NCBI RefSeq assembly: GCF_900105195.1
Contig: NZ_FNRX01000002.1
Coordinates: forward strand, 4,154,001 to 4,218,000
Source: Rhodococcus pyridinivorans
GTDB taxonomy: Bacteria; Actinomycetota; Actinomycetes; Mycobacteriales; Mycobacteriaceae
Length of the DNA: 64,000 nucleotides
Reading direction: 5' to 3'
The notes under the pieces: model-generated
The model's database searches: none
Told to the model about the DNA's origin: nothing
What the model saw: only the letters and a program-made list of their open reading frames with translations
Position numbers and translations under genes: made by a program
Part shown: positions 12,662 to 64,000 of the stretch, piece after piece
How positions within the stretch are numbered: position 1 is the stretch's first letter
How the letters are laid out: each line of letters begins with the position of its first letter

Positions 12662-13639
12662 CTATTCGGCGAAGGTGAGTCCGCGGGCGGCTCGTTCCTC
12701 CACCGCCGCGGCCGTCTCCTCCGCGATCAGGTCGGCGTTCACGGCCGCCCCTGTCATCACGCCGGCGCCTGCAGCGACCACGACCACCGCGGAGAGGTCG
12801 GCGGAGTTGCCCGCCGCCCATACGCCGGGCAGAGCGGTCTTCCCCGTCGGATCGGTCTCGATGAGGGTCCCCACGGGATGGTCGGTGACCGTTCCGCCGA
12901 GCTGCTCGTACAGGTCGGCGCGGGCGACGAAACGCGGTGCGACCACCACGGCGTCGACCTCGACCTCGGTGCCGTCCTCGAGCACCACGGCACGGACCTC
13001 CTCGCCGTCCGCTCGCAGTTCCGCGACGGTGCCGTCGACGATCCGCACGTCGCGCGCCTCGAGCTGGTCGCGGGCCTCGCTCTCCAGGGCGGGCGCCGAG
13101 TGGGTGAAGAAGGCGACGTCGTCGCTGAGCTGACGGAACAACAGGGTCTGGTGCACGCTCATCGGCCCCGACGAGATCACGCCGACGCGCCGGTCCCGAA
13201 CCTCCCAGCCGTGGCAGTACGGGCAGTGCAGGACACTCTTCCCCCACAGTTCGCGGACTCCGGGCAGGTCGGGCAGCTCGTCGACCAGTCCCGTCGCGAG
13301 GATCAGTCGACGTGCCTGCACGGTGGTGCCGCCGGAGAGACCGATCTCGAATCCCGTGTCGCTGCGACGAGCGGATTCTGCTCGTGCGGACAGGATTTCG
13401 GCGCCGTATCCGGCGGCCTCCTTCCGTCCGAGAGCCAGCAGTTCGGTCGGCGCGATGCCTTCGTGTCCGATCACGTTGTGCGCGGCCGCGGCAGGGGCGT
13501 TGCGCGGTTCTCCGGCATCGACGACAAGCACCGAGCGGCGTGAGCGTGCCAGCGCTGTGGCGGCACTCAGTCCGGCGGAGCCGCCGCCGATCACGACGAC
13601 GTCGTAACCGTCCTGTGTGGGGTTCTCCTGGGTGTTCAT
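12662..13639 (-). CDS. Thioredoxin-reductase-like FAD/NAD(P) oxidoreductase
   Basis: A 325-residue two-dinucleotide-domain flavoprotein. The FAD-binding GGGSAG is at 18-23, the redox pair CPYC at 139-142 (in LHCPYCHGWEV), and the C-terminal FAD contact reads GVWAAGNSAD near 283. In this subfamily the CPYC motif is followed by HGWE rather than the usual thioredoxin-reductase context, so the partner may not be thioredoxin. The start ATG 13639 lies inside the stop of the upstream methyltransferase gene (ATGA, 4-base overlap), which points to translational coupling and a joint role. A divergent XRE-cupin gene is the likely regulator. Confidence 0.88.
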   Translation of the reverse strand: MNTQENPTQDGYDVVVIGGGSAGLSAATALARSRRSVLVVDAGEPRNAPAAAAHNVIGHEGIAPTELLALGRKEAAGYGAEILSARAESARRSDTGFEIGLSGGTTVQARRLILATGLVDELPDLPGVRELWGKSVLHCPYCHGWEVRDRRVGVISSGPMSVHQTLLFRQLSDDVAFFTHSAPALESEARDQLEARDVRIVDGTVAELRADGEEVRAVVLEDGTEVEVDAVVVAPRFVARADLYEQLGGTVTDHPVGTLIETDPTGKTALPGVWAAGNSADLSAVVVVAAGAGVMTGAAVNADLIAEETAAAVEERAARGLTFAE

Positions 13640-50446: not shown

Positions 50447-51700
50447 TCACTCGACCGTCACCGGATGCGCGCTCGGTTCCACCGTCGCGCCGCGCAGTCG
50501 TCGCAGCACCAGGGTCACGAGCAGCGCGAGGACGGCCATCGCGGCGCTGTACCAGACGACCGCGTCCGGGGCGTCGAAGATGCCGCCGAACAGACCCGCG
50601 ACGAGCGCACCGACCGACATGCCCGCGACCTCCTGGGCGGACCACAGACCGTTCACCCGGCCCAGCAGCGTGTGCGGCGTGTGCGTCTGGATCAGCGAGT
50701 AGCGCAGCACCTCCTGCACGGCCCCGAACACACCGACGATCACGAGCAGCACGACGGTGAGCGCCAGGACGGACGTGAAGCCGACCAGTGCCTGGACGAC
50801 GAATCCGAGGACCAGGGCGGTGAGCAGCACGCGGCCGGGCCGCACCGAACGGCCGAGCCATCCACTGGTGACCGTGGCCGCGGCGGCGCCGAGCGCGATC
50901 GCCGCGTACATGACGCCGATGGCGACCGCATTGCCCTCGAAACGCGCGTCGGCAAAGGCCGGCACGAGCACGAGCACACCGCCGCCGAGCATGGCGACGA
51001 CGCCGGCGATCATCACCCCGCCGACGACGCGTTCGCGGCGCAGGAAGCCGGTCACCGTCTCCGCGGGTGCGTCGGCGTCGTGCCCGGCGTCCGCCGTCGG
51101 TGGGTTCAGCGCCGGCAGGCCCGAGAGCAGGGTGACGGTCACGGCGGTGCCGATCGCGGCCACCCAGTAGTTCCACGCCACCGAGAACGTCGCGATCACG
51201 AGACCGCCGAGCGCCGGGGACAGGACGGCTCCCGCGCGGGCGCTGAGCACGTTGAGCGCACCGACGGCGACGAGCTGGTCCTTGGGGACGAGCGTGGGCA
51301 CGACTGCCAGCAGAGCCGCGATGCTGATCGACCCGATCAGGCCGTTGACGACCGTCAGGGCGATGATCGCCGGCACCGAGGGCGACGACAGACCGGCGTT
51401 GACGGCCAGTCCGACGAAGGTGAGACCGGAGACGGTGCGGGCGAACAGGATCAGGAACTTGCGGTTGTAGCGGTCGGCGAGCATGCCGCCGAGCAGCATG
51501 CCGCCGATCGCAGCGCCCCCTTCGAGCGCGGAGACCAGACCCACCATCGGCGACGATCCGGTCAGGTCGTAGACCTGGATCGGTACGCCGACCATGAGCA
51601 TCCCGATACCGAAGATCGAGATGGTGCGAGCGATGAAGATCCGGCGGAAGGCCGCGCTCTCGCGCAGCGGCCGCAGATCGAAGAGGGCGCCGTTGCTCAT
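50447..51700 (-). CDS. MFS exporter, EntS (enterobactin exporter) type
   Basis: A 417-residue major-facilitator carrier with about 12 helices, similar to the EntS branch that exports siderophores: the N-terminus LRESAAFRRIFIARTISIFG, the loop 2/3 motif GGMLADRYNRKFLIL and the region HTPHTLLGRVNGLWSAQEVA are typical. It is the third visible gene of the siderophore operon, 10 bases after the binding-protein gene, so export of the NRPS product is the likely role. Start ATG 51700. Confidence 0.88.
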   Translation of the reverse strand: MSNGALFDLRPLRESAAFRRIFIARTISIFGIGMLMVGVPIQVYDLTGSSPMVGLVSALEGGAAIGGMLLGGMLADRYNRKFLILFARTVSGLTFVGLAVNAGLSSPSVPAIIALTVVNGLIGSISIAALLAVVPTLVPKDQLVAVGALNVLSARAGAVLSPALGGLVIATFSVAWNYWVAAIGTAVTVTLLSGLPALNPPTADAGHDADAPAETVTGFLRRERVVGGVMIAGVVAMLGGGVLVLVPAFADARFEGNAVAIGVMYAAIALGAAAATVTSGWLGRSVRPGRVLLTALVLGFVVQALVGFTSVLALTVVLLVIVGVFGAVQEVLRYSLIQTHTPHTLLGRVNGLWSAQEVAGMSVGALVAGLFGGIFDAPDAVVWYSAAMAVLALLVTLVLRRLRGATVEPSAHPVTVE

Positions 51701-51710
51701 TGCCGGGCCG

Positions 51711-52754
51711 TCACTCGGACTTCGCGGCGGCGTCGGCGAGCATCGGAGCGATCTCGTCGGTGGCCCACTTCAGCGACAACGCCGACGGGAAGCCCACGGC
51801 GTTCGGCATGCCGGTGTTGCGGGCGAGCGAGACGACCGCGCCGCGCTCGACGGCCGGAAGACGGTTCCACGCCTCGAACTTGGTCAGGTATCCGAGATCG
51901 CCGGTGGGCGAGACGACCACGAGCAGGTCGGCGTCGAGCTGCGAGATCTCCTCGTAGGACAGCACACCGCGTCCGTCCGCATCGACCTGCAGTGTGTTCG
52001 CGTACTCGCTGAGCTCGAGGCCGAGCGAGTTCAGGAACTGCCCGATGCCGCGGTCGTCGGCGGCGAGCACCGACAGCTGGCCACCGGTGTCGCCGATGAT
52101 CGCGTTGTAGGTCGCGCCCTCGAGTGCGGGGTACTGCTCCTTGGCGGCGTCGAGATCGACCTCGGCCTGCTCGATGACCTCCTCGGCCTTCTCGGGGATG
52201 CCGAGGGCCGAGGCGATCTTGCGGGTGGAGTCCTGCCACGGCTCACCGTTGGCGCGGTAGTCGAAGTGGACGACGGGGAACTGTTCGGCGAGCTGGTCGT
52301 AGGTGTTCTGTTCGAGTCCCCAGAAGCCGGTGGAGACGATGATGTCGGGCTGCAGCGCGGCGATCTGCTCGGCGATCACCGTGGCACCGCCGTCCATGTT
52401 CAGCAGCGGCGGGACGTCGGCGCCGAGTGCTTCGGCCTCCCACGGCCACACGCCGGTGCCGCCGGTCGCCGCGAGGTTCTGGGCATCGACGGGGAGCGCG
52501 AGCGGGGTGACGCCCAACGACAGCAGGATGTCGGCGTCCTGCGGCGACAGCGGCAGGGCGCGGGTCGGGGCCGACTCGACGGTCGTGTCGCCGAACTTGC
52601 CGGAGACGGTGACCGGGAACTCGCCGTTCGCCGCCGTCGCGCTGCCGGACGAGCTGCCGCTGTCGGTGTCCGAGCCGCACGCCGTGACACCGACCAGCAT
52701 GGCGGTGGCGGCGAGGGCGACGCCGATCCGGCGCAGTCGCTTGTGGATCCTCAT
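51711..52754 (-). CDS. Ferric-siderophore ABC transporter substrate-binding lipoprotein (FepB-like)
   Basis: A 347-residue class III binding protein. The signal peptide ends in lipobox VTAC (Cys26 in VGVTACGSD), then a Ser/Gly linker. The body has the two-lobe pattern of FecB/FepB proteins: APTRALPLSPQDADILLSLG, AALQPDIIVSTGFWGLEQNT and the long linker helix STRKIASALGIPEKAEEVIE. It should capture the ferric form of the siderophore. Its ATG overlaps the NRPS stop by 4 bases (ATGA), so the two are translationally coupled. The permease and ATPase genes are not in the window. Confidence 0.92.
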   Translation of the reverse strand: MRIHKRLRRIGVALAATAMLVGVTACGSDTDSGSSSGSATAANGEFPVTVSGKFGDTTVESAPTRALPLSPQDADILLSLGVTPLALPVDAQNLAATGGTGVWPWEAEALGADVPPLLNMDGGATVIAEQIAALQPDIIVSTGFWGLEQNTYDQLAEQFPVVHFDYRANGEPWQDSTRKIASALGIPEKAEEVIEQAEVDLDAAKEQYPALEGATYNAIIGDTGGQLSVLAADDRGIGQFLNSLGLELSEYANTLQVDADGRGVLSYEEISQLDADLLVVVSPTGDLGYLTKFEAWNRLPAVERGAVVSLARNTGMPNAVGFPSALSLKWATDEIAPMLADAAAKSE

Positions 52755-55700
52755 CGATTCTCCTCTGCTGTAGAACACTTCGTAGGTCCGTCGTCCGGGT
52801 GTCCGTTCCCGGCGCCGCGGATCTCGTCCTCGTGGAGGGTCGCGGCGAGTTCGCCGATCGACCCGGCGGTGAAGATCGACTCGGCGTCGATCACGTATCC
52901 GGCCGCCCGCAGTCCGCCGAGGATCCGCATCACCGAGATGCTGTCGCATCCGAGTTCGAGCAGATCGTCGTCGACGCCGACCTGCTCGACGCCGGTGACC
53001 TCGGAGGCGAGGGCGCACAGCAGCTCTTCGGCCGGTGTGGACGGTGCCCGGTGCGTTCGCGGGGCGAGTTCCGGTCGCGGCAGCGCTGCGCGGTCGATCT
53101 TGCCGTTGGCAAGCGTGGGCAGGGCGTCGAGCACGACCGTCGCCGACGGCACCATGTAGTCGGGCAGCACCCGCGCGACCGCGCGTCGCAGCGTCTCGGC
53201 GTCGAGGGTGTGCCCGGCGGCCGGGACGACGTAGGCGACAAGACGTGCCGTCGCACCGAGATCGGTGCGGGCGAGCACCACTGCGGTCGCGACGTCCGGT
53301 CGCGACGAGAGCACGGTCTCGATCTCGGCCGGTTCGATCCGGTATCCGCGGATCTTGACCTGGTCGTCGCCGCGTCCGCGGTAGCGGATGTGTCCGTCGG
53401 GCGTCCACAGGGCCCGGTCACCCGTGCGGTACATGCGGTCTCCGGGGAATTCCGGATCGATCGTGTCCGCGACGAAACGGTCGGCGGTGCGACCCGGGTC
53501 GGCGAGATAGCCGCGGGCCAGTCCACGACCGGCGAGGTAGAGCTCGCCCTCCACACCGATCGGCGCGGGACGCATCCACCGGTCGACGATGTAGGCCCGG
53601 GTGCCGGCGACCGGTCGGCCCGCAACGGGCGCCTCGGCGTCCGAAGCCCGTGCGACGAGCGCGTCGACGGTGCTCTCGCTCGGCCCGTAGAGGTTGTAGG
53701 CGCTCACGCCGTCCAGCCCGCGCAACCGGTCCCACATCGGTTGGGAGACCGCCTCGCCGCCGAAGCCGAGCGAGGCCGGGCACCGTCCGTCGTCCGCGAG
53801 TCCGTGATCGAGCAGCTGCGCGAGGTGCGACGGGGTGACCTCGACGAAGTCCCAGCGGGATTCGTGGGCGACGCGGACCATCTCGGCCGGATCGCGCTGG
53901 ACCTTCTCGTCGACGACGTGCACCGCGTGCCCGTCGAAGAGCCACAGCTGCGGTTGCCAGGACGCGTCGAAGGCGAACGACCACGCGTGGCCGACCCGGA
54001 GCCGGTCGCGTCCGGTCCGTGCCTGCGTCGGCGCGTAGAGGTCGGCGCGGTGGCTGTAGAACAGCGCGGTCAGGCCGCGGTGCAGGGCGAGGACCGCCTT
54101 GGGTGTGCCGGTGGAGCCGGAGGTGTACACGACGTAGGCCGGGTGGTCGGCGCGCAGCGGTGCGAGCCGGTCGGCGTCGGTCAGCGGGGCGTCGTCGTAG
54201 CCGGCGACCCGCGCCGCGAGCGTCTCGTCGTCGAGCGCGAGCACCGGCGCGTCCACCGCGGGCAGCGACGACGCGAGTTCTCGGGTGGTGAGCACGACGG
54301 CCGGCTCCGCGGTGCCGAGGATCGTCGCGAGACGCTCGGTGGGAGTGCGCGGTTCGAGCGCGACGTAGGCACCGCCGGAGACGAGCACCGCGAGCATCGC
54401 CGCGATCGTGTCGGCCGTGCGGGGCAGCACGAGCGCCACGCGGGTCTCGGGAGCGACACCGTGGTCGACGAGCAGTCGCGCCCACCGGCGGACCAGGGAC
54501 GCGAGGTCGGCGAAACTCCATTCGAGATCGCCTGCCACGAGCGCGGTCTCGTGCGGGTGACGGGCGACCGCGTCGTCGAACAGGTCCGCGACGGTGACGG
54601 CTTCGGCGACCGGTGCCGGTGTGGCCCGCCACTGTTCGAGCCGGGCGCGTTCGTCGGCCGGCAGGACGTCGATGGCGGACAGGCGCCGGTGCGCCTCTCC
54701 CCCGGCCAGCGTGCGCAGCACCCGGTCGAGTCCGGCGACGAGACGTTCGACGGTGCCGCGGTCGTACAGGTCGGAGCTGTACTCGACGACGCCGACGAGG
54801 GTGTCGGTGCCCACATACTCGACGAGGTCGAACGACAGGTCGAACTTCGAGGTCTCCATCGGGTGCGGTTCGGGGGTGACACCCGCCGTGAGCCCACCCG
54901 CACTGCGCGGATCGGGTTCGACGAGATAGACGATCATCACCTGGAACAGCGGGTGCAGGGCGCGCGAGACGGATCGGTCGGAGCCGAGCACCGCGTCGAC
55001 GACCTGCTCGAAGGGCAGGTCCTGGTGGTCGAACGCCTCGAGGTCGGTGCGGCGGATCCGGTCGAGCAGTTCGGCGACGGTGGGGTCGCCGGACAGGTCG
55101 GTGCGCAGCACGAGGGTGTTGAGGAAGAAACCGACGAGATCCTCGAGTTGCGCGTCGCCGCGTCCGGAGACCGGGGTGCCGAGGGGGATGTCCTCGCCGC
55201 CGCCGTAGGCGGCGAGCAGCACCGCGACGGCGGCCTGCACGACCATGAACATCGAGAGGTCGTGTGCGCGTGCGAGTTCCCGCAGTGCGCGCACGACCTC
55301 CGCGTCGAGCGCGAATGGCACCGCGCCACCGCGATAGGAGGTGCGGGCCGGACGGGTCCGGTCGGTCGGCAGCGGCAGTTCCTCGGGCAGGCCGGCGAGG
55401 GCGTCGCGCCAGTAGGCGCGCTGACGCGCGGCGAGCGACTCCGCATCCGCCGGGTCGCCGAGCAGGTCGCGCTGCCACAGCGTGAAGTCGGCGTACTGCA
55501 CGGCGGGCTGCATCCACTCCGGTGCCTGCCCCACCTCCCGCAGCGCGTAGGCGGTCGCCAGATCGGTGAGCAGCGCCTTGGTCGACCACTCGTCGACGGC
55601 GATGTGGTGAATCACCAGCGCCACCACGGTGCCGTCCCCGGCGTCGAGGACCGACAGCCGCACCGGCAGTTCGGCCGACAGATCGAAGCGGTGATCGATC

Positions 55701-58700
55701 GCCTCGGCCAGCGCATCGTGGACATCGGCCGCGGCGACCGAGCGGTGGTCGACGACCACGCGGACCTCGTCCGGCGCGAGCACCTGCTGGTAGGCCTGTC
55801 CGTCCGCGCTCGGGAAGACCGTGCGCAGCGACTCGTGACGCAGGACGACGTCGCGCACGGCCGCTTCGAGTGCCGGGACGTCGACGCGCCCGTGCACCCG
55901 CCACGTGACAGGCACGTTGTACACGCCGCCGCGGGCCCCGAGCTGGTCGAGAATCCAGAGGCGTTGCTGCGCGTACGACAGCGGCACCATCGCAGGTCGC
56001 GGGTCGGCCGCCACCAGCGCGGGTCGCGGCGACGCCTGCCCGGCGGCCGCGCACCGCTGCGCGAGCGACTCCACCGTCGGGGCGTCGAAGACCGTGCGCA
56101 GGGCCAGATCCGCGCCGAGCTCCGAACGGATCGCGTTCACGAGCCGGATCGCAGCGAGGGAATGCCCACCGAGCGCGAAGAAGTCGACGTCGATACCGAC
56201 CTCGTCGAGTCCCAGTGCGTCGGCGAACAGAGTCGCGATCGTCGCCTCGAGTTCGGTACGCGGCTGCCGTCCGGATCCGGTGTCGAACTCCGGTGCCGAA
56301 AGGGCACCGCGATCGAGTTTGCCGTTGAAGGTCGTCGGGACCGCGTCGATCACGAGAACCCGTGCGGGCAGCAGATACTCGGGCACACGTCCGACGAGTG
56401 CGTCACGGACCGCCACCGGATCCACCGCGACTTCCGCTGCGGGAACGATATATCCGACGAGCACCGAATCGCCTGCGGGACGGGGTTTGATCGCGGCCAC
56501 AGCACGGGCGACACCGTCGACGGCATCGAGAGCCGCCTCGAGTTCGCCGAGTTCGATGCGCAGACCGCGCAGCTTGATCTGGTCGTCGCCGCGGCCGAGA
56601 TATTCGAGGTCGCCGTGGGCGTCCCAGCGTGCGAGGTCGCCGGTTCGGTAGAGCCGGTCGCCGGGATCGCCGTAGGGGTCGGCGACGAACCGCTGGGCGG
56701 TGAGCGCCGGGCGCCGCAGGTAGCCCTGCGCAACCTGTACTCCCCCGATGTACAGCTCACCGGGGGTGCCGGCCGGCACGGGGCGCAGATACCGGTCGAG
56801 CACGTACAGGCACACGTTCGCGCCCGGCCGCCCGATGACGGAACCGCGGGTAGGCGAACCGATCCGGGCACCCGGGTCGGCGTCGAGGGTCACCTCCACC
56901 GCGGCTTCGGTCGGGCCGTACAGGTTGTGGACCTTCACCTGCGGGAGCACCGTCGCCGCGCGTGCGACGGTGCGCGGCGACAGTGCTTCACCGCTGCACA
57001 CGATGCGGCGCAGGCTCGCGGCGTCCGCGGTGGCGGGCACGGCGAGGGTCTCCTCGAGCATCGACGGCACGAAGTGGGCGACGGTGATGTTCCCGTCGCG
57101 CAGCAGGGTCGCCGATTCGACGGGATCGCGGTGCGCGTCGGGTCCGCCGACGACGACGCTCGCACCGTCGACGAACGGCGCGAACAACTCCCACACCGAC
57201 ACGTCGAAGGTCGCGGGTGTGCGCAGCAGCACCCGGTCGTCGGGCGAGGCGGGCAGTTCGCGGCGCACCCATTCGAGCCGGTTCGCCACGGCGCGGTGCG
57301 ACACGGCGACGCCCTTGGGCAGACCCGTCGACCCCGAGGTGTAGATGACGTAGAGCGGGTGGTCGAGGGTGAGCGGCGCGATCCGGTCGGTGTCGGTGAC
57401 CGACTCCGGGCTGCGGGCGTCGATACGGGCACGCACCTCGGTGTCGTCGAGGTCGAGTCGCGGATGCTCGCCGGGCAGTTCGATGTCGCTGCGCGTCAGC
57501 ACGACTCGCGGATGCGCATCGCCGAGCAGGTACTCGATGCGCGTTTCGGGCAGCGTGGTGTCGATCGGCTGGTAGGCCGCACCGGACTTCACGACGGCGT
57601 GGATCGCGACGACCTGCCCCACGGAGCGGGGCACCGCGACCGCGACGATCGCACCCGGACCGGCGCCGAGCGCGACGAGTTCGCGGGCGAGGCGGTTCGA
57701 GGCGGCGTCGAGGGCGGCATGGGTGAGGGTGTGGTCGGCCGCGACGAGAGCCGGCCGTTCGGCGTGCTCGGCGGCGCTGCGGGCGAGCACCTCGCTCAGC
57801 GGGGCGAGAGCGAAGTCGACGCGCTCGCCGGTGCCGACGGCGAGTTGTCCCGCGGCCTCGTCGGCGTCGAGGATCGCGACGTCGCCGATCCGGGCCGCGG
57901 GTGCGCTCGCGACCTGATCGAGCAGAGTGAGCAGCGCGGCGAGAAGCGTGTCGGCCATGGTGGCGTCGAACAGGTCGGTCGCGTACTCGACCGATACGGC
58001 GACCTCGCCGGTGTCCGGGGCGTCGACGAAGGTGAGGTTGAGGTCGAACTTGGCGCGGACGTTGCTCAGCGGTTCCCAGCGGGTGGGCACACCGAGCAGG
58101 TCGGGCAGCTGCGCGGGGCGCTGCAGGTAGCTCATCATCACCTGGAACAGCGGGTTCCGTCCCTCGACGCGCGGCGGTGCGAGTCGCTCGACGAGCTGCT
58201 GGAAGGGCACCTCCTGGTGCGCCATCGCCGCGAGATCGGTCTCGCGCACCCGGTCGAGGAGTTCGGCGAAGGTGGGCTCGCCGGACAGATCGGTGCGCAG
58301 CACCAGGGTGTTGACGAAGAAACCGACGAGTTCGTCGAGTGCGGTGTCGGAACGGCCCGAGACGGGGGTGCCGACGACGATGTCGTCGCCCGCGCCGAGC
58401 CGGGAGAGCAGTGCCGCGACGGCCGCGTGCAGCGCCATGAACATCGTGCCGCCGCGGGCATCCGCGACCGCGCGCAGGCGGGCGGCGATGTCGGCGGGGA
58501 CCGTCGCGGTGGTGTTGCCCGCCGCTCCGGTCGGCCGCGCGGGGCGGGGCCGGTCGGTGGGCAGGACGATCTCGTCGGGCAATTGCGCGAGAGTGTCGGT
58601 CCAGTAGTCGATCTGGGTGTCGATCCGGCCGGCCTCGATCAGTTCGCGCTGCCACAGCGTGTAGTCGGCGTACTGGACGGGCAGCGGAGACCATTCGGGT

Positions 58701-61700
58701 GTCGCGCCGGCCGCCCGGGCTTGGTAGGCGCGGGTGAGGTCGCCGAGCAGCGGCGCATCCGACCATTCGTCGGTCGCGATGTGGTGCAGCACCACTGCGA
58801 GGACGTGCCGGTCGGGCGCGACGCGCACCAGCACCACGCGCAGCGGCGGGTCGGTGTGCAGATCGAACGACGCGGTGAGCCGCTCGGTGAGCAGCGCCCG
58901 GACGGCATCCTCGGACTCTGTCTCGTGCAGTTCGAAGCGCACGGCCTCGGGCGTGTCCAGGATCCGCTGGTAGGGCGTGCCGTCCTCGGAATCGACGACG
59001 GTGCGCAGGCTCTCATGACGTTCCACGACGTCGGCGACCGCCGCGACGAGGGCATCGGCGTCCACCGCGCCGTCGAGGCGGGCGACGTGCGCGTAGTGGT
59101 AGGCGAGGCTGTCGTCCTGCAACTGCTGGAGCAGCCACAGGCGTTCCTGGGCGGCCGACAGCGGCACCCGGTCGGGGCGCGTCCGCGCGGTGATCGGCGG
59201 GAGCGCCGCTGCGGCGCCGGGGATGCGGCGGGCGAGTTCCTCGACGCTGCGAGCCTCGAACAGGTCACGGATGGTGACGTCCACACCGAGTTCGGAGCGG
59301 ATGCGGCCGACGATCCGCATGGCGATCATCGAGTGCCCGCCGAGTTCGAAGAAGTCGTCGTCGGCGCCGACCTCGTCGACCCCGAGGACGTCGGCGAAGA
59401 CCTCGCACAGGACCTTCTCGGTCTCGGTGCGCGGGGCGCGTCCACCGAGGCCCGTGGCGGCCTGCGGTTCGGGCAGGGCGCGGGTGTCGAGCTTGCCGTT
59501 GACGGTCATCGGCACGGAATCGATGAGCTGTACCCCGGCCGGGACCATGTAGTCGGGCAACTGGGCGCGCAGGTGGGCGACGAGCCGCGACGACAGGTCG
59601 GACGGATCGCCGTCTCCGACCGGAACGGCGTAGGCAGCAAGTCGTTTCGTGCCGGGCACGAGCGGGTCGTCGACGGCGATCACCGCCGCGGTACCGACCT
59701 CGGGGTGCTCCTCGAGCACAGCCGCGATCTCGTGCAGTTCGACGCGGTAACCGCGGATCTTGACCTGGTCGTCGACGCGGCCGAGATAGTCGAGGTTGCC
59801 GTCGGTGCGGCGGCGCATGAGGTCGCCAGTGCGGTACATGCGGCCACCGGCCGACCACGGATCGGCGACGAAGCGGTCGGAGGTGAGCCCGAAACGGTTC
59901 AGATAGCCGCGCGCGAGACCCACACCCGCGATGTACAACTCGCCGACGACACCGTCGACGACGGGTCGCAGCCACGGATCGAGGATGTAGGCGCGGGTCG
60001 CGCGGATGGGGACGCCGACCGTGGGGGTCGCGCTGTCGTCGGTGCCGCCACCGAGGGTGTTGATGGTGTACTCGGTGGGGCCGTACAGGTTGTACCCGAG
60101 GGTGCCATCGGTCTCGCGCAGGCGCGTCCACACCGAATCCGACACGGCCTCACCGCCGAGCAGAACGAGCGGCGGGCGGTGCTGTCCCGGACCCTCGTCG
60201 AGCATGCCGTCCGCGATCAGCTGCGTCGCGTAGGTAGGGGTGACGTTGACGACGTCGATGGCGTGGGTGTTGCAGTACTCGACGAGCGCGGTGGCGTCGC
60301 GACGCAGGTCCTCGTCGCAGACGTGCACCTCGTGGCCCTCGACGAGCCAGAGCAGTTCCTCCCACGACATGTCGAAAGCGAACGACACGGTGTGCGCGAC
60401 CCGCATCCGGCGTCCGTCCACCGACGAGACCACCGGATCGAAGATCTCGTCCTGGTGGTTGCGCTGCATGTTGGTCAGGCCACGATAGGGGGTGACCACG
60501 CCCTTCGGCTTGCCGGTGGACCCCGAGGTGTAGATGACGTAGGCGGGGTGCTCGAGCCGGCCCGGGCGACCCGGGGCGAAGGCACCGAGTTCGGCGTCGG
60601 TCAACGGCGCGGTACTCGCGGCGAGGGGCCCGTCCAGGCGGATGCTGCGGTCGGCGGGCAGGCCGAGACGGTTCTGCACCGCGGTCGTGGTGAGGAACAG
60701 CGCCGGCAGCGCGTCGTCGATGACGGTGCGCAGACGCTCGTCGGGCTGGTCGAGTTCGAGCGGCAGGTAGGCGGCACCGGTGCGCAGGATCGCGAAGAGC
60801 GCGACGACGGTGTCGATGCTGCGGGGCAGACCGAGGCACACGATGGTCTCGGGTCCCGCTCCCCCGGCGATGAGGGTGCGGGCGAGCGCTTCGACGCGGC
60901 CGGCGAGTTCGCCGTAGGTGCTGCTCTGTTCACCGGAGACGAGGGCGATGCGGTCGGCGTCGGTCGCGGCGCGCGCGATGAGCATCTCGGCGACGGTGAC
61001 GTCCTCGACCTCGGGGATCTCGGCGCGCAGCCGGGCGTCGGTGACGGTGTGTTCGGCGGCCGTCAGTGCGGGCACGGACGCGACCGGCAGATCGACTCCG
61101 CGGGCGACGAAGTCGAGCAGCGCCACGAAGCGGTCGTGCAGGGCCCGGGCACGCGCACCGTCGACGACGTCGGGCCGGTAGTCGATCTTGACGTGCATGG
61201 TCCGCCCCGGCGACACGACGATCGCGAGGGGATAGTGCGTGTGGTCGAGGCTGTCCTCGGCGAGGATGTCGTGCCGCGCGGACTGCCGGGCCATCTCGTC
61301 GGCGTCCTTGAAGTTCTGCAGTACGAACAGGGTGTCGAACAGTTCGGAATGACCGACGGCGCGGAGGATGTCGCCGAGTCCGAGATACTCGAACTCCATG
61401 CGGTCGGCGTACTCGTCCTGCATGCGGCGCAGCAGGTCCGCGACGGTCTCGGCGCCGGACAGGCGCACCCGCACCGGGACGGTGTTGAGGAACATGCCGA
61501 CCACGCGGTCGAGTCCGACGATCTCGGTGGGCCGCCCGGCGACGGTGGAGCCGAACACGACGTCGGTGCTGCCGGATTCGGCGGCGAGCAGCAGGCCGAC
61601 GACGGCGTTCATCAACGCGTTGAGGGTGACGCCCGTGCTGCGGGCCCGATCGCGCAGTGTCGCGGTGAGCGTCTCGTCGATGTACGACTCGATGCGCAGC

Positions 61701-64000
61701 GGCACGATGGCGGCGCGGTCGCGGGTGGATCCGGCGAGCAGCGTGGGCTTGTCGAAACCGGCGAACTCGTCGCGCCAGGCCTGCTCGGCGGCGGTGCGGT
61801 CGCGGGCGGCGAGCCACTGCAGGTAGTCGGTGAAACCCGCTTCGGGCGCCGCGATTTCGTCACCGGCGTAGCGGGCGAGCAGTTCGTCGACGAACAGCGC
61901 ACCGGACCAGCCGTCCCACAGGATGAATTCGCGGTTGACGACGAGACGGTCGATGCCGTCGAGGTGCAGCAGCAGCATGCGCCACAGCGGCGGGGACGCG
62001 AGGTCGAACGGCTGCAGCCGATCCTCCTCGATGAGTTTCTCGGCGCGGGCCTGCTGCTCGGCGGGGTCGAGGTCGGTGAGGTCGACCTCGGTGAACGGCA
62101 CCTCGAGATCCGCCGCGCCGATGAACTGCACCGGATCGGCCAGACCGTCGTCGGTGAAACCGGCACGCACGGTGGGGTTCTCGGCGAGCAGACGTGCGGC
62201 GGCGCGGCGCAGGCGCTCGACGTCGAGGCGGTGGCCGAAGTCGAGCGAGAACTGGGCGGTGTAGATGTCCTTCGACGAGTCGAAGACCGACTGGAAGTAC
62301 AGGCCGCGCTGCAGCGGCGACAGCGGCCAGATGTCCTCGATCCGCACGGGCGCGATCCGTGCGACGCGGTCGATCTCGGTCTGCGTGAGCGTGACGTGCC
62401 CGAGATCGGACGGAGTGAGACAGGTCCGCCCCAAAGCTGCGTCGGCGCGGCCGAGGAGATCGTCGAATGCCGCGCGCCATGCCTCGGCGAGCCCGGCCAC
62501 GAGATCGGGGTCGAGCGCCTCGTCGGCGGTCAGATGCACCGTTGCGCCGCCGGTTCCCCGTTCGACGTGGATATCGAGCAGGTAGTTGCCGATGCGGTCT
62601 CCGCCGCTCCGCACGAGCACCTGCGGCTGTCCGAGCGGCGCGAGGGCCGGTCCGGCCTGGACGTTGGCGTAACGCAGCATCGGCCAGCCGATGCCCCGGT
62701 CGGGGGCTGCGCGCAGGCGTTCCTTCGCGGTGCGCAGGGCGTCGAGCGGATCGGTGGCGAGCGCCAGCCGCACCGGCGTCGTCCAGTCGAGCGCGCCGAC
62801 GGTGCGGGTGAGGTCGGCGTCGGGGGCCAGTGCGATGCGGCCGTCGCGGACGATGTCGACGAGCAGTTCACCGTCGCCGCTCTCGCGGGTGTTCGCGACC
62901 GCGGCTGCGGTCACCGCGGTCCACACATCGGTCGAGACGCCCGAGACGAGACCGGCCACTGCGGTGGTCGCCATGGAGAATTCGTCGTCGGTCAGGGTGA
63001 GGGTCACAGGCGTCCGTGTGCGGCCGGTGGCCACCGCTGCGGCGAACTCGGCACCGGGTGCGACGGTGGTCATCCAGTCGGGAAGCTCGGCGAGTCGCTG
63101 CGGGGAGGCGGCCTGCTCGGTGAAGACGCGGGCGTGGGTCGCGGGCGAGGTGGGCACGGGCGGCAGCACGATCTGCGTGCCGCGCCGGGCGGCGCGCAGG
63201 GCACGGTGCAGGTCGGCGGTGACGATCGACCAGGACGTCTCGTCGACGAGCCCGGCGGGGGCGAGGAAGACCAGTTCCCCGGCGCTCTCGTCCGCAGCGG
63301 TGAGCCGCCCCGCGGTCAGGACCCGGCCGGCGGTGGCGTCGGGGCGCAGGGGCAGGTCGGCGGTCGCGGTTCCCACCGGCAGGGCGGCGTCCGCGACGAG
63401 GGTCCGGACGTCGACGGCGGCGGTGTCGTTCACCGACAGCAGCCACAGCACCGGGGCCGGTGCGGTGAGGGTCGTCCGCAGCGCCGGGTGGTGCTCGACC
63501 ACGGCGGCGACCGCGGCGAGCACGGCGTCGTCGGTGAGATCCTCCGGAGCCGGGACGCGGTATTCGCGCAGGTCGGCGTCCACGGAGAGTCCGGCGTCGC
63601 GGCGTCGCGCGGTGGCCGGCAGCAGCGCGAGCGGTCCGGCGGCGGTGTCCTCGTGGTCGGTCTCGGAGCTGTCGCCGAGGGCCGGCGCCGAGGCGACGTC
63701 GAAGGTGCCGAGCGGCGCGTCGAGGTCGTCGAGGATCGCGGCGAGGAAGTCGTCGAGATCGGCGGCGCAGCGCTGCGCGAGCGGTGCGTCGTCGGCATGA
63801 CCGCGCAGTCCGATCTCGATCGGGTGCCCGGCCTTCTCGAGCACGAGGATGAATTCCAGTTCGCCGACCGGCCCGGAGGACAGCATGTGCGCCTGCGATT
63901 CCCGCCCGACCGAGTACCGCGAGGCAGCTGCGGGCATGATGTTCACGCCGACGGTCGGGGGCCGCCAGTCCGGGTCGATCTCGGCGAGTTCGCGACCGAG
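52751..64000 (-). CDS. Non-ribosomal peptide synthetase for a hydroxamate siderophore, N-terminus cut by window edge
   Basis: 3749 residues are visible; the frame continues past 64000, so the GTG at 63946 is not a start. With 63946 as residue 1, the order is: end of a condensation-type domain (to about 95), an epimerisation-like domain (100-510) lacking its HHxxxDG (PAGLVDE at 230-236), a C domain (531-965) with EFILWDG at 673-679, A1 (980-1495), T1 (FFELGGHS, 1532-1539), C (1590-2030, HHIATDE), A2 (2045-2553), T2 (FFALGGHS), C (2650-3095, HHIAVDE), A3 (3113-3626), T3 (LLELGCDS) and a 60-residue tail. Pocket codes are DMENLGLINK (A1, N5-hydroxyornithine), DVWHVSLVEK (A2, serine-like) and DAQEGGLVDK (A3, unassigned). 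No thioesterase ends the protein. Confidence 0.93.
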   Translation of the reverse strand, partial: LGRELAEIDPDWRPPTVGVNIMPAAASRYSVGRESQAHMLSSGPVGELEFILVLEKAGHPIEIGLRGHADDAPLAQRCAADLDDFLAAILDDLDAPLGTFDVASAPALGDSSETDHEDTAAGPLALLPATARRRDAGLSVDADLREYRVPAPEDLTDDAVLAAVAAVVEHHPALRTTLTAPAPVLWLLSVNDTAAVDVRTLVADAALPVGTATADLPLRPDATAGRVLTAGRLTAADESAGELVFLAPAGLVDETSWSIVTADLHRALRAARRGTQIVLPPVPTSPATHARVFTEQAASPQRLAELPDWMTTVAPGAEFAAAVATGRTRTPVTLTLTDDEFSMATTAVAGLVSGVSTDVWTAVTAAAVANTRESGDGELLVDIVRDGRIALAPDADLTRTVGALDWTTPVRLALATDPLDALRTAKERLRAAPDRGIGWPMLRYANVQAGPALAPLGQPQVLVRSGGDRIGNYLLDIHVERGTGGATVHLTADEALDPDLVAGLAEAWRAAFDDLLGRADAALGRTCLTPSDLGHVTLTQTEIDRVARIAPVRIEDIWPLSPLQRGLYFQSVFDSSKDIYTAQFSLDFGHRLDVERLRRAAARLLAENPTVRAGFTDDGLADPVQFIGAADLEVPFTEVDLTDLDPAEQQARAEKLIEEDRLQPFDLASPPLWRMLLLHLDGIDRLVVNREFILWDGWSGALFVDELLARYAGDEIAAPEAGFTDYLQWLAARDRTAAEQAWRDEFAGFDKPTLLAGSTRDRAAIVPLRIESYIDETLTATLRDRARSTGVTLNALMNAVVGLLLAAESGSTDVVFGSTVAGRPTEIVGLDRVVGMFLNTVPVRVRLSGAETVADLLRRMQDEYADRMEFEYLGLGDILRAVGHSELFDTLFVLQNFKDADEMARQSARHDILAEDSLDHTHYPLAIVVSPGRTMHVKIDYRPDVVDGARARALHDRFVALLDFVARGVDLPVASVPALTAAEHTVTDARLRAEIPEVEDVTVAEMLIARAATDADRIALVSGEQSSTYGELAGRVEALARTLIAGGAGPETIVCLGLPRSIDTVVALFAILRTGAAYLPLELDQPDERLRTVIDDALPALFLTTTAVQNRLGLPADRSIRLDGPLAASTAPLTDAELGAFAPGRPGRLEHPAYVIYTSGSTGKPKGVVTPYRGLTNMQRNHQDEIFDPVVSSVDGRRMRVAHTVSFAFDMSWEELLWLVEGHEVHVCDEDLRRDATALVEYCNTHAIDVVNVTPTYATQLIADGMLDEGPGQHRPPLVLLGGEAVSDSVWTRLRETDGTLGYNLYGPTEYTINTLGGGTDDSATPTVGVPIRATRAYILDPWLRPVVDGVVGELYIAGVGLARGYLNRFGLTSDRFVADPWSAGGRMYRTGDLMRRRTDGNLDYLGRVDDQVKIRGYRVELHEIAAVLEEHPEVGTAAVIAVDDPLVPGTKRLAAYAVPVGDGDPSDLSSRLVAHLRAQLPDYMVPAGVQLIDSVPMTVNGKLDTRALPEPQAATGLGGRAPRTETEKVLCEVFADVLGVDEVGADDDFFELGGHSMIAMRIVGRIRSELGVDVTIRDLFEARSVEELARRIPGAAAALPPITARTRPDRVPLSAAQERLWLLQQLQDDSLAYHYAHVARLDGAVDADALVAAVADVVERHESLRTVVDSEDGTPYQRILDTPEAVRFELHETESEDAVRALLTERLTASFDLHTDPPLRVVLVRVAPDRHVLAVVLHHIATDEWSDAPLLGDLTRAYQARAAGATPEWSPLPVQYADYTLWQRELIEAGRIDTQIDYWTDTLAQLPDEIVLPTDRPRPARPTGAAGNTTATVPADIAARLRAVADARGGTMFMALHAAVAALLSRLGAGDDIVVGTPVSGRSDTALDELVGFFVNTLVLRTDLSGEPTFAELLDRVRETDLAAMAHQEVPFQQLVERLAPPRVEGRNPLFQVMMSYLQRPAQLPDLLGVPTRWEPLSNVRAKFDLNLTFVDAPDTGEVAVSVEYATDLFDATMADTLLAALLTLLDQVASAPAARIGDVAILDADEAAGQLAVGTGERVDFALAPLSEVLARSAAEHAERPALVAADHTLTHAALDAASNRLARELVALGAGPGAIVAVAVPRSVGQVVAIHAVVKSGAAYQPIDTTLPETRIEYLLGDAHPRVVLTRSDIELPGEHPRLDLDDTEVRARIDARSPESVTDTDRIAPLTLDHPLYVIYTSGSTGLPKGVAVSHRAVANRLEWVRRELPASPDDRVLLRTPATFDVSVWELFAPFVDGASVVVGGPDAHRDPVESATLLRDGNITVAHFVPSMLEETLAVPATADAASLRRIVCSGEALSPRTVARAATVLPQVKVHNLYGPTEAAVEVTLDADPGARIGSPTRGSVIGRPGANVCLYVLDRYLRPVPAGTPGELYIGGVQVAQGYLRRPALTAQRFVADPYGDPGDRLYRTGDLARWDAHGDLEYLGRGDDQIKLRGLRIELGELEAALDAVDGVARAVAAIKPRPAGDSVLVGYIVPAAEVAVDPVAVRDALVGRVPEYLLPARVLVIDAVPTTFNGKLDRGALSAPEFDTGSGRQPRTELEATIATLFADALGLDEVGIDVDFFALGGHSLAAIRLVNAIRSELGADLALRTVFDAPTVESLAQRCAAAGQASPRPALVAADPRPAMVPLSYAQQRLWILDQLGARGGVYNVPVTWRVHGRVDVPALEAAVRDVVLRHESLRTVFPSADGQAYQQVLAPDEVRVVVDHRSVAAADVHDALAEAIDHRFDLSAELPVRLSVLDAGDGTVVALVIHHIAVDEWSTKALLTDLATAYALREVGQAPEWMQPAVQYADFTLWQRDLLGDPADAESLAARQRAYWRDALAGLPEELPLPTDRTRPARTSYRGGAVPFALDAEVVRALRELARAHDLSMFMVVQAAVAVLLAAYGGGEDIPLGTPVSGRGDAQLEDLVGFFLNTLVLRTDLSGDPTVAELLDRIRRTDLEAFDHQDLPFEQVVDAVLGSDRSVSRALHPLFQVMIVYLVEPDPRSAGGLTAGVTPEPHPMETSKFDLSFDLVEYVGTDTLVGVVEYSSDLYDRGTVERLVAGLDRVLRTLAGGEAHRRLSAIDVLPADERARLEQWRATPAPVAEAVTVADLFDDAVARHPHETALVAGDLEWSFADLASLVRRWARLLVDHGVAPETRVALVLPRTADTIAAMLAVLVSGGAYVALEPRTPTERLATILGTAEPAVVLTTRELASSLPAVDAPVLALDDETLAARVAGYDDAPLTDADRLAPLRADHPAYVVYTSGSTGTPKAVLALHRGLTALFYSHRADLYAPTQARTGRDRLRVGHAWSFAFDASWQPQLWLFDGHAVHVVDEKVQRDPAEMVRVAHESRWDFVEVTPSHLAQLLDHGLADDGRCPASLGFGGEAVSQPMWDRLRGLDGVSAYNLYGPSESTVDALVARASDAEAPVAGRPVAGTRAYIVDRWMRPAPIGVEGELYLAGRGLARGYLADPGRTADRFVADTIDPEFPGDRMYRTGDRALWTPDGHIRYRGRGDDQVKIRGYRIEPAEIETVLSSRPDVATAVVLARTDLGATARLVAYVVPAAGHTLDAETLRRAVARVLPDYMVPSATVVLDALPTLANGKIDRAALPRPELAPRTHRAPSTPAEELLCALASEVTGVEQVGVDDDLLELGCDSISVMRILGGLRAAGYVIDAESIFTAGSIGELAATLHEDEIRGAGNGHPDDGPTKCSTAEENR

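Follow-up and report, generated by a model that had tools for sequence, protein, structure and literature searches.

A condensation domain without its catalytic histidine, placed before N5-hydroxyornithine in a Rhodococcus pyridinivorans synthetase, looks like a subfamily hallmark and not like damage

Introduction

Whether a condensation (C) domain without its catalytic histidine is a damaged enzyme or one that works differently is the question raised by a siderophore-type non-ribosomal peptide synthetase (NRPS) of Rhodococcus pyridinivorans. Our study examined a window of 64 000 nucleotides (contig 2, 4154001–4218000, of a 5.26 Mb genome), near the end of which an epimerization (E)-like domain (E*) and the C domain that follows it (C*) both depart from the HHxxxDG motif. 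A sequence-only reading of the window had proposed that one module boundary lost both epimerization and the usual condensation base, and that C* might be a non-elongating docking platform, a residue-skipping step or a domain with a divergent mechanism. Our analysis found that C* is not broken; its motif does not look like damage but seems to mark an actinobacterial subfamily whose members precede N5-hydroxyornithine (hOrn).

Domain order and placement of the motif

The NRPS frame extends beyond the window; its ATG lies 978 bases past the window end, at contig position 4218978, and the frame encodes a protein of 4075 residues (P0001). The GTG at 63946, from which the sequence-only reading counted residues, is an internal codon; a full C domain (C1) lies upstream, and residues 1 to ~95 counted from the GTG are its tail. 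The order of C, E, adenylation (A) and thiolation (T) domains is C1-E*-C*-A-T-C-A-T-C-A-T, with no A-T pair between C1 and E*. The upstream synthetase (P0002; L012:1058-11704:-) has 3549 residues in the order C-A-T-C-A-T-C-A-T-E.

As the sequence-only reading had described, E* reads PAGLVDE at residues 230–236 and C* reads EFILWDG at residues 673–679, both counted from 63946; GIGWPMLRYAN is present in E* from residue 418, the opening of C* is intact (LSPLQRGLYFQS, from residue 542) and both later C domains keep HH (HHIATDE and HHIAVDE). A genome-wide alignment of C and E domains placed both segments in the HHxxxDG column, which rules out a misplaced motif. C* lacks the second histidine that a canonical C domain carries at this position, although it matches Pfam PF00668, stands in C*-A-T order and has ten best matches among PDB C domains with E values from 1e-64 to 1e-54; NCBIfam gave the domains generic names only. 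The genome holds 73 C-superfamily rows, one domain being split over two of them, and the second histidine is missing in 4 of the 71 that are readable at the motif: C*, E*, the terminal E of P0002 (HPIVADG) and an E domain of a lipopeptide-type NRPS (DAVAVDG). C* is thus the sole C domain among the four. The DAVAVDG domain occupies residues 3860–4163 of the contig 2 ORF 1890810–1906499 (+), and the C domain after it keeps HHILIDG.

Comparison with sister genomes gave the same motif state throughout: C* carried R[EQ]F[ILM][LV][WF]DGWS across its loci and had HH in 0/34, and E* lacked HH in 14/14, which makes a sequencing error unlikely. The 14 C1-E*-C* loci probably represent ~10 genomes, as some loci duplicate the same genome.

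Pairing with hydroxyornithine modules

The A domain after C* has the code DMENLGLIN, which we take, from the coelichelin synthetase, to specify hOrn. A domain without the second histidine (His-less) stood directly before a DMENLGLIN A domain in all 11 annotated C*-bearing proteins, and the pairing was then counted in four wider sets. These counts leave out position 239 of the A-domain code, which was misaligned for the majority of rows without an hOrn code; codes quoted here with position 239 were read by hand.

The first set (a), the best 120 of 1687 relatives found with C*-A, takes in the window's own family (P0048 and P0085) and yielded 520 C-A pairs, 102 of them unreadable. A His-less domain preceded 147/159 hOrn modules and 1/259 modules with other codes, the lone misfit being an N-terminal domain (HYLVMDAH), and 105 of the 107 proteins with both kinds of module agreed at every module. 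In the second set (b), the best 120 of 2911 relatives that C* alone retrieved, 47 of the 283 pairs were unreadable, and a His-less domain preceded 26/47 hOrn modules and 0/189 modules with other codes, with the code RVNLGLIN tallied as hOrn in this final count and as other in an earlier one. A third set (c) came from a search of 394 genomes in the class for the hOrn A domain on its own; its best 30 loci had 29 His-less domains and one HH domain. The fourth (d) comprised 80 loci, including 20 picked where similarity to C* falls off, and gave 78 pairs: 66 His-less domains (60 before hOrn, 2 before a partly read hOrn code, 4 unreadable) and 12 HH domains (3 before hOrn, 7 before other codes, 2 unreadable). 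Some genomes contribute to both (c) and (d), which are therefore not independent, and kinship makes significance values meaningless. A His-less domain therefore signals hOrn almost without exception, but hOrn does not always come with a His-less domain.

A single clade with co-varying positions

A FastTree phylogeny built from 259 non-redundant C domains gathered all 49 His-less rows reading DGW into one clade with a local support of 99, on the DCL side of the tree, and the HH domains preceding hOrn fell outside it. C* lies within this clade: its second histidine is replaced, it reads xDGW and the next A domain has the hOrn code. Members follow a T domain directly in 116/162 cases and an E domain in 46/162; the clade is defined by its acceptor and not by its donor. 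This distribution rules out donor chirality as the cause, and a hidden E domain before each His-less domain was rejected because no gap to the preceding domain exceeded 300 residues in the 162 cases. Placement on the DCL side stands beside the fact that E* and the upstream terminal E are both degenerate.

The DCL-type domains of solved structure, TycB C1, SrfA-C and PvdL, belong to the same superfamily and the same side of the tree as C*, and are its best PDB sequence matches. The C* clade differs from them in that the catalytic histidine is replaced by Leu, Phe, Val or Ala (49/49), a Trp precedes DG, a Glu of the acceptor strand is replaced by Gln or Arg, and the domain follows T as well as E. 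In P0001 numbering, column 1221 is Gln or Arg in 49/49 His-less domains and Glu in 70/72 HH comparison domains, column 1164 is Leu in 49/49 versus 1/72, and Trp1021 is found in 45/49, whereas the four residues most frequent at this column among HH domains, together 70/72, do not include Trp. Our alignment places position 1221 opposite Q2921 of FscG C3, which is described as a putative acceptor-pocket residue in the passages on that domain in PMC8097023.

Conservation and selection

C* is tightly kept. An E*-C* query was matched over nearly its full length in 10/201 genomes of the family, at 55–100 % identity, and C1-E*-C* in full in 4/18 genomes of a genus sample; the four named orthologues (R. 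globerulus, R. triatomae, R. sp. RD6.2 and R. rhodnii) are all Rhodococcus. Against two relatives of the same genus (G005 and G007), the ratio of non-synonymous to synonymous substitution rates (dN/dS) was 0.13 and 0.17 for C* and 0.11 and 0.21 for C1, and it was <0.4 for every domain compared. The earlier claim that C* lost its usual base holds as chemistry, but this purifying selection argues against a docking platform or residue skipping.

A different NRPS of 5.3–5.7 thousand residues, carried by 24/201 genomes, matches C* at 43–52 % identity. At 19 loci of this type (hereafter the 5.6-thousand-residue type), QFLLWDG follows an E domain that keeps HH, and three fully annotated examples have the order C-A-T-E-C-A-T-E-C*-A-T-C-A-T-C. 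Their terminal C domain (G151, G122 and G133) reads HYLAVDEW or HYIAVDEW, with SYLAVDEW in P0228; these terminal domains without the second histidine fall outside the C* clade and perhaps close a diketopiperazine.

Proposed chemistry and its alternatives

Taken together, we consider it probable that C* is a functional C domain of a His-less subfamily that joins the chain to the N5-hydroxylamine of hOrn, with E* a dead spacer and C1 intact. The final module of the upstream synthetase would supply the peptidyl chain, which C* would attach to the side-chain N5-hydroxylamine of the hOrn loaded on its own module, so that a hydroxamate forms in the backbone; acylation of the δ-N-hydroxylamine is the best reading of C*, and we infer both this bond and the reason that the histidine can be spared. 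The conjugate acid of an alkyl hydroxylamine has a pKa near 6. At neutral pH such a group would carry no charge and would be a good nucleophile, and its O-H hydrogen may help to shuttle the proton, so that a histidine base would be dispensable. A hydrophobic pocket could hold the neutral N-OH, and a hydrophobic replacement of the histidine together with the lost negative charge on the acceptor strand would fit a pocket for this group, not for an ammonium. Of the three options in the sequence-only reading, a divergent mechanism fits best.

Synthetases of related siderophores point the same way. Two coelichelin-type synthetases (3648 and 3698 residues), whose codes are presumably those of formyl-hOrn, Thr and hOrn, read HHIIADG before Thr and HLLLWDG before hOrn. 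P0017 of Mycolicibacterium hodleri has an exochelin-like order (β-Ala, hOrn, Thr, hOrn and an additional module) in which its two hOrn are preceded by HFLLWDG and HFLLLDG and Thr by HHIVADG, and P0078 of Streptomyces scabiei, which fits the scabichelin synthetase, reads HLILWDG before hOrn. In all three kinds of synthetase the A domain for hOrn is immediately preceded by a His-less domain, which also speaks against docking or skipping. By comparison, two fuscachelin-like loci (Gly-Gly, Ser and hOrn genes) read HHIVMDG before hOrn, and P0199 of Dactylosporangium fulvum, matched by species and three-module order to DafB of chlorodactyloferrin, reads HHLLVDG at its cyclo-hOrn module. The last monomers of chlorodactyloferrin are given as Orn, Ser and cyclo-N-hydroxy-Orn in the relevant part of PMC10683483, and because the ring of cyclo-hOrn uses the δ-N, the chain must lie on the α-N. 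HH-keeping hOrn modules that could be matched to known compounds thus appear, partly on general background, to join hOrn by its α-amine. The last module of P0001 has the same type of code as the cyclo-hOrn module of P0199, together with HHIAVDE, so that one protein would combine a His-less domain at a predicted δ-linked hOrn with an HH domain at a predicted α-linked one.

Several points weigh against this interpretation. The δ-N-OH acylation of hOrn in coelichelin, exochelin, scabichelin and erythrochelin, and the joining of the fuscachelin main chain to the hOrn α-amine, are taken from general background. HH is kept by 12/159 hOrn modules in set (a) and by 21/47 in set (b); the latter comprise 12 reading HHIxGDEW and 9 reading HHILTDGW, which are not explained and at which the δ-N reading predicts an α linkage. 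Because of these 21 modules, only 12 of the 25 proteins with both kinds of module in set (b) agree at every module. The clade has one origin, and the correlation is a single event long kept rather than many independent ones. An AlphaFold2 model of C* from a five-sequence alignment had a mean predicted local distance difference test (pLDDT) score of 56.7 and a predicted template modelling (pTM) score of 0.47, at which the pocket could not be inspected.

The single clade would also fit an unlikely alternative, in which C* makes an ordinary α-amide with water as its base. Here an ancestral C-A pair would have lost the histidine a single time, and joint inheritance of C and A would be all that lies behind the link to hOrn. 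Histidine mutants of some C domains keep some activity and water could be the base, but in FscG C3, which has an α-amine acceptor, the His-to-Gln change leaves only ~1 % of activity, and calculations on that domain favour attack first and proton transfer to the histidine second (both from the FscG passages of PMC8097023). Furthermore, two further columns changed along with the histidine in 49/49 domains, and HH domains from other clades are also seen in front of hOrn A domains, showing that A and C can part.

Rather improbable, in our judgement, is an inactive C*, with C1 (HHIVNDG) performing the condensation and E* and C* serving as inert scaffold before the hOrn module. C1 keeps HH in 8/8 annotated C1-E*-C* proteins and no A-T lies between it and the hOrn module, which speaks for this reading; however, hOrn is preceded by no C domain other than a His-less one in the 5.6-thousand-residue type and in the lines resembling those of coelichelin, exochelin and scabichelin, and C* is constrained as strongly as catalytic domains. 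Decay of the whole line to one that makes nothing, which the lost catalytic residues of E* and the upstream terminal E and a remnant of the cluster-linked aspartate decarboxylase gene (panD) might suggest, was rejected on dN/dS as very improbable; frames are also open in annotated orthologues, and the binding-protein, transporter and siderophore-interacting genes are intact.

The epimerization-like domain and C1

The epimerization loss previously proposed is supported for E*, but the motifs of E* and C* have separate explanations and do not reflect one event at one boundary. E* is an E-type domain by sequence (172 bits to the E profile), but it has neither HHxxxDG nor a T domain directly upstream, C1 standing there instead. 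Its motif drifts among loci (for example, PAGLVDE, AAGLIDD, AAAILDP, SSLLLDA and SVTLLDA), and the GIGWPMLRYAN-like region is kept in 10/14 loci, the others having it changed or truncated. The dN/dS of E* was 0.26 and 0.36, the highest of eight domains against G005, G007 and the more distant G181. Judged from its sequence, E* is a dead and faster-evolving relic, relaxed but not free of constraint, that may be kept as a structural spacer.

The E domain that would serve the actual module boundary is the terminal E of P0002. It is degenerate in the Rhodococcus clade (HPIVADG twice, HPCVADT, HAMAADA and HAAAADA, with one unreadable), and its dN/dS of 0.30 and 0.32 was the highest against G005 but not against G007. 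Two distant genomes (G130 and G169) have the same domain order with an intact terminal E (HHLAVDG), and the E* motif is unreadable in G169. A degenerate E before a C domain (HPxxxDA, HRLAVDE) recurs elsewhere, in P0023, P0040, P0094 and P0107 and in P0029, P0034 and P0037.

C1 is a complete N-terminal C domain whose nearest group in the tree is the starter C at the N-terminus of the 5.6-thousand-residue NRPSs (local support 99), and its place, kept HHxxxDG and grouping are those of a starter-type C domain. On the evidence of C1 and C*, the C1-E*-C* arrangement may descend from that type by loss of A-T units; in the E-domain tree the E* clade had a support of 73 with long branches, and E* was not placed. 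Without an A-T of its own, C1 must act on another carrier protein, and the most economical role may be acylation of the α-amine of the hOrn served by C*. We raise tentatively, as a doubtful possibility, that a single carrier-bound hOrn is served by C* as well as C1, with C1 further acylating the free α-amine, for instance with 2,3-dihydroxybenzoate. C* would then act on the δ-N-hydroxylamine by histidine-free, substrate-assisted chemistry and C1 on the α-amine, with E* as the spacer between them; if so, one module would create a branch point by means of two C domains that differ in chemistry, and the product would carry one acyl group more than a linear reading gives.

The remainder of the cluster

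The features of the window that bear on this assembly line are collected in Table 1. A 3734-codon open frame lies antisense to the NRPS (window 52799–64000, +) and is probably a by-product of high-GC codon use.

Table 1. Coordinates of the synthetase domains, key positions and adjoining genes in the window
Feature	Window position	Strand	Basis or remark
C1, C-terminal part	63689..64000	-	rest (HHIVNDG) beyond window end
E*, degenerate epimerization-like domain, without own T or A	62369..63661	-	
PAGLVDE at HHxxxDG position of E*	63239..63259	-	alignment
C*, His-less DCL-side C domain before hOrn module	61004..62341	-	
EFILWDG at HHxxxDG position of C*	61910..61930	-	alignment
Gln1221 codon of C*	61316..61318	-	column comparison
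A domain, code DMENLGLIN (presumably hOrn)	59474..60994	-	
T domain, hOrn module	59240..59458	-	
C domain, HHIATDE, before Ser-like module	57848..59170	-	
A domain, Ser-like code	56300..57835	-	
T domain, Ser-like module	56069..56287	-	
C domain, HHIAVDE, before last module	54638..55990	-	
A domain, code DAQEGGLVD, probably C-terminal cyclo-hOrn	53081..54637	-	code and PMC10683483 (relevant part)
Last T domain	52853..53071	-	no thioesterase follows
Iron-siderophore-type substrate-binding protein	51711..52715	-	PF01497
Major facilitator superfamily transporter, possible siderophore exporter	50447..51700	-	PF07690 and PF05977

Hand-read codes suggest Gly, β-Ala and Ser for P0002 and hOrn, Ser and cyclo-hOrn for P0001. 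The β-Ala reading is supported by a cluster-linked panD, which is full length in 3/20 pattern-searched loci (L111, L098 and L106). In the host genome only a remnant is left outside the window (contig 2, 4230800–4230898, -; L012 ~12800–12900), a 47-codon frame that retains profile positions 1–33 plus a short tail, and a second, full-length panD lies at 4924904. An isochorismatase and a siderophore-interacting protein adjoin the NRPS genes. The 2,3-dihydroxybenzoate-AMP ligase (4726255, beside a second NRPS pair) and the single strong Orn/Lys N-hydroxylase of the genome (4761046) are each about half a megabase away, and this arrangement makes precursor sharing likely.

The four ordinary elongating C domains of P0001 and P0002 read HHIxxDE rather than HHxxxDG. 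In this they resemble FscG C3, whose HHxxxDE is linked to small acceptors in the passages of PMC8097023 on that domain; the acceptors here are β-Ala, Ser, Ser and probably cyclo-hOrn.

Relation to described systems and implications

In the open-licence literature, which leaves most subscription journals outside, no description of a His-less C domain preceding hOrn was found. The closest published statement found concerns kribbellichelin, for which section 3.3 of PMC9962454 proposes that an extra C domain, in Krb24, might join Ser to the δ-N of N5-OH-Orn, and whose cluster also has an aspartate decarboxylase for β-Ala. That section is silent on the state of HHxxxDG, and the Krb24 sequence was not found among the best 120 of 2911 relatives retrieved with C* alone. 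FscG C3 is similar to C* in that an altered motif is tied to a particular kind of acceptor, but it keeps the catalytic histidine, the change lies at the Gly and the acceptor is Gly by its α-amine, according to the same passages of PMC8097023.

Another part of the superfamily invites comparison. The interface (I) domains of β-hydroxylating siderophore NRPSs reportedly (Reitz 2019) belong to the C superfamily and lack the catalytic motif. They are said to accompany an elongating C domain, whereas in the relatives of C* the His-less domain stands in place of one.

The role of the second HHxxxDG histidine as a base is a matter of debate, and no 'C domain code' for the acceptor is reported, in the passages of PMC8097023 concerned. 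On the first point, the His-less clade that precedes hOrn amounts to a natural experiment; to the second it is a clear exception. In practice, the motif could let genome mining predict which siderophore backbone sites are hydroxamates and which are amides, and could also flag the hOrn modules that are α-linked.

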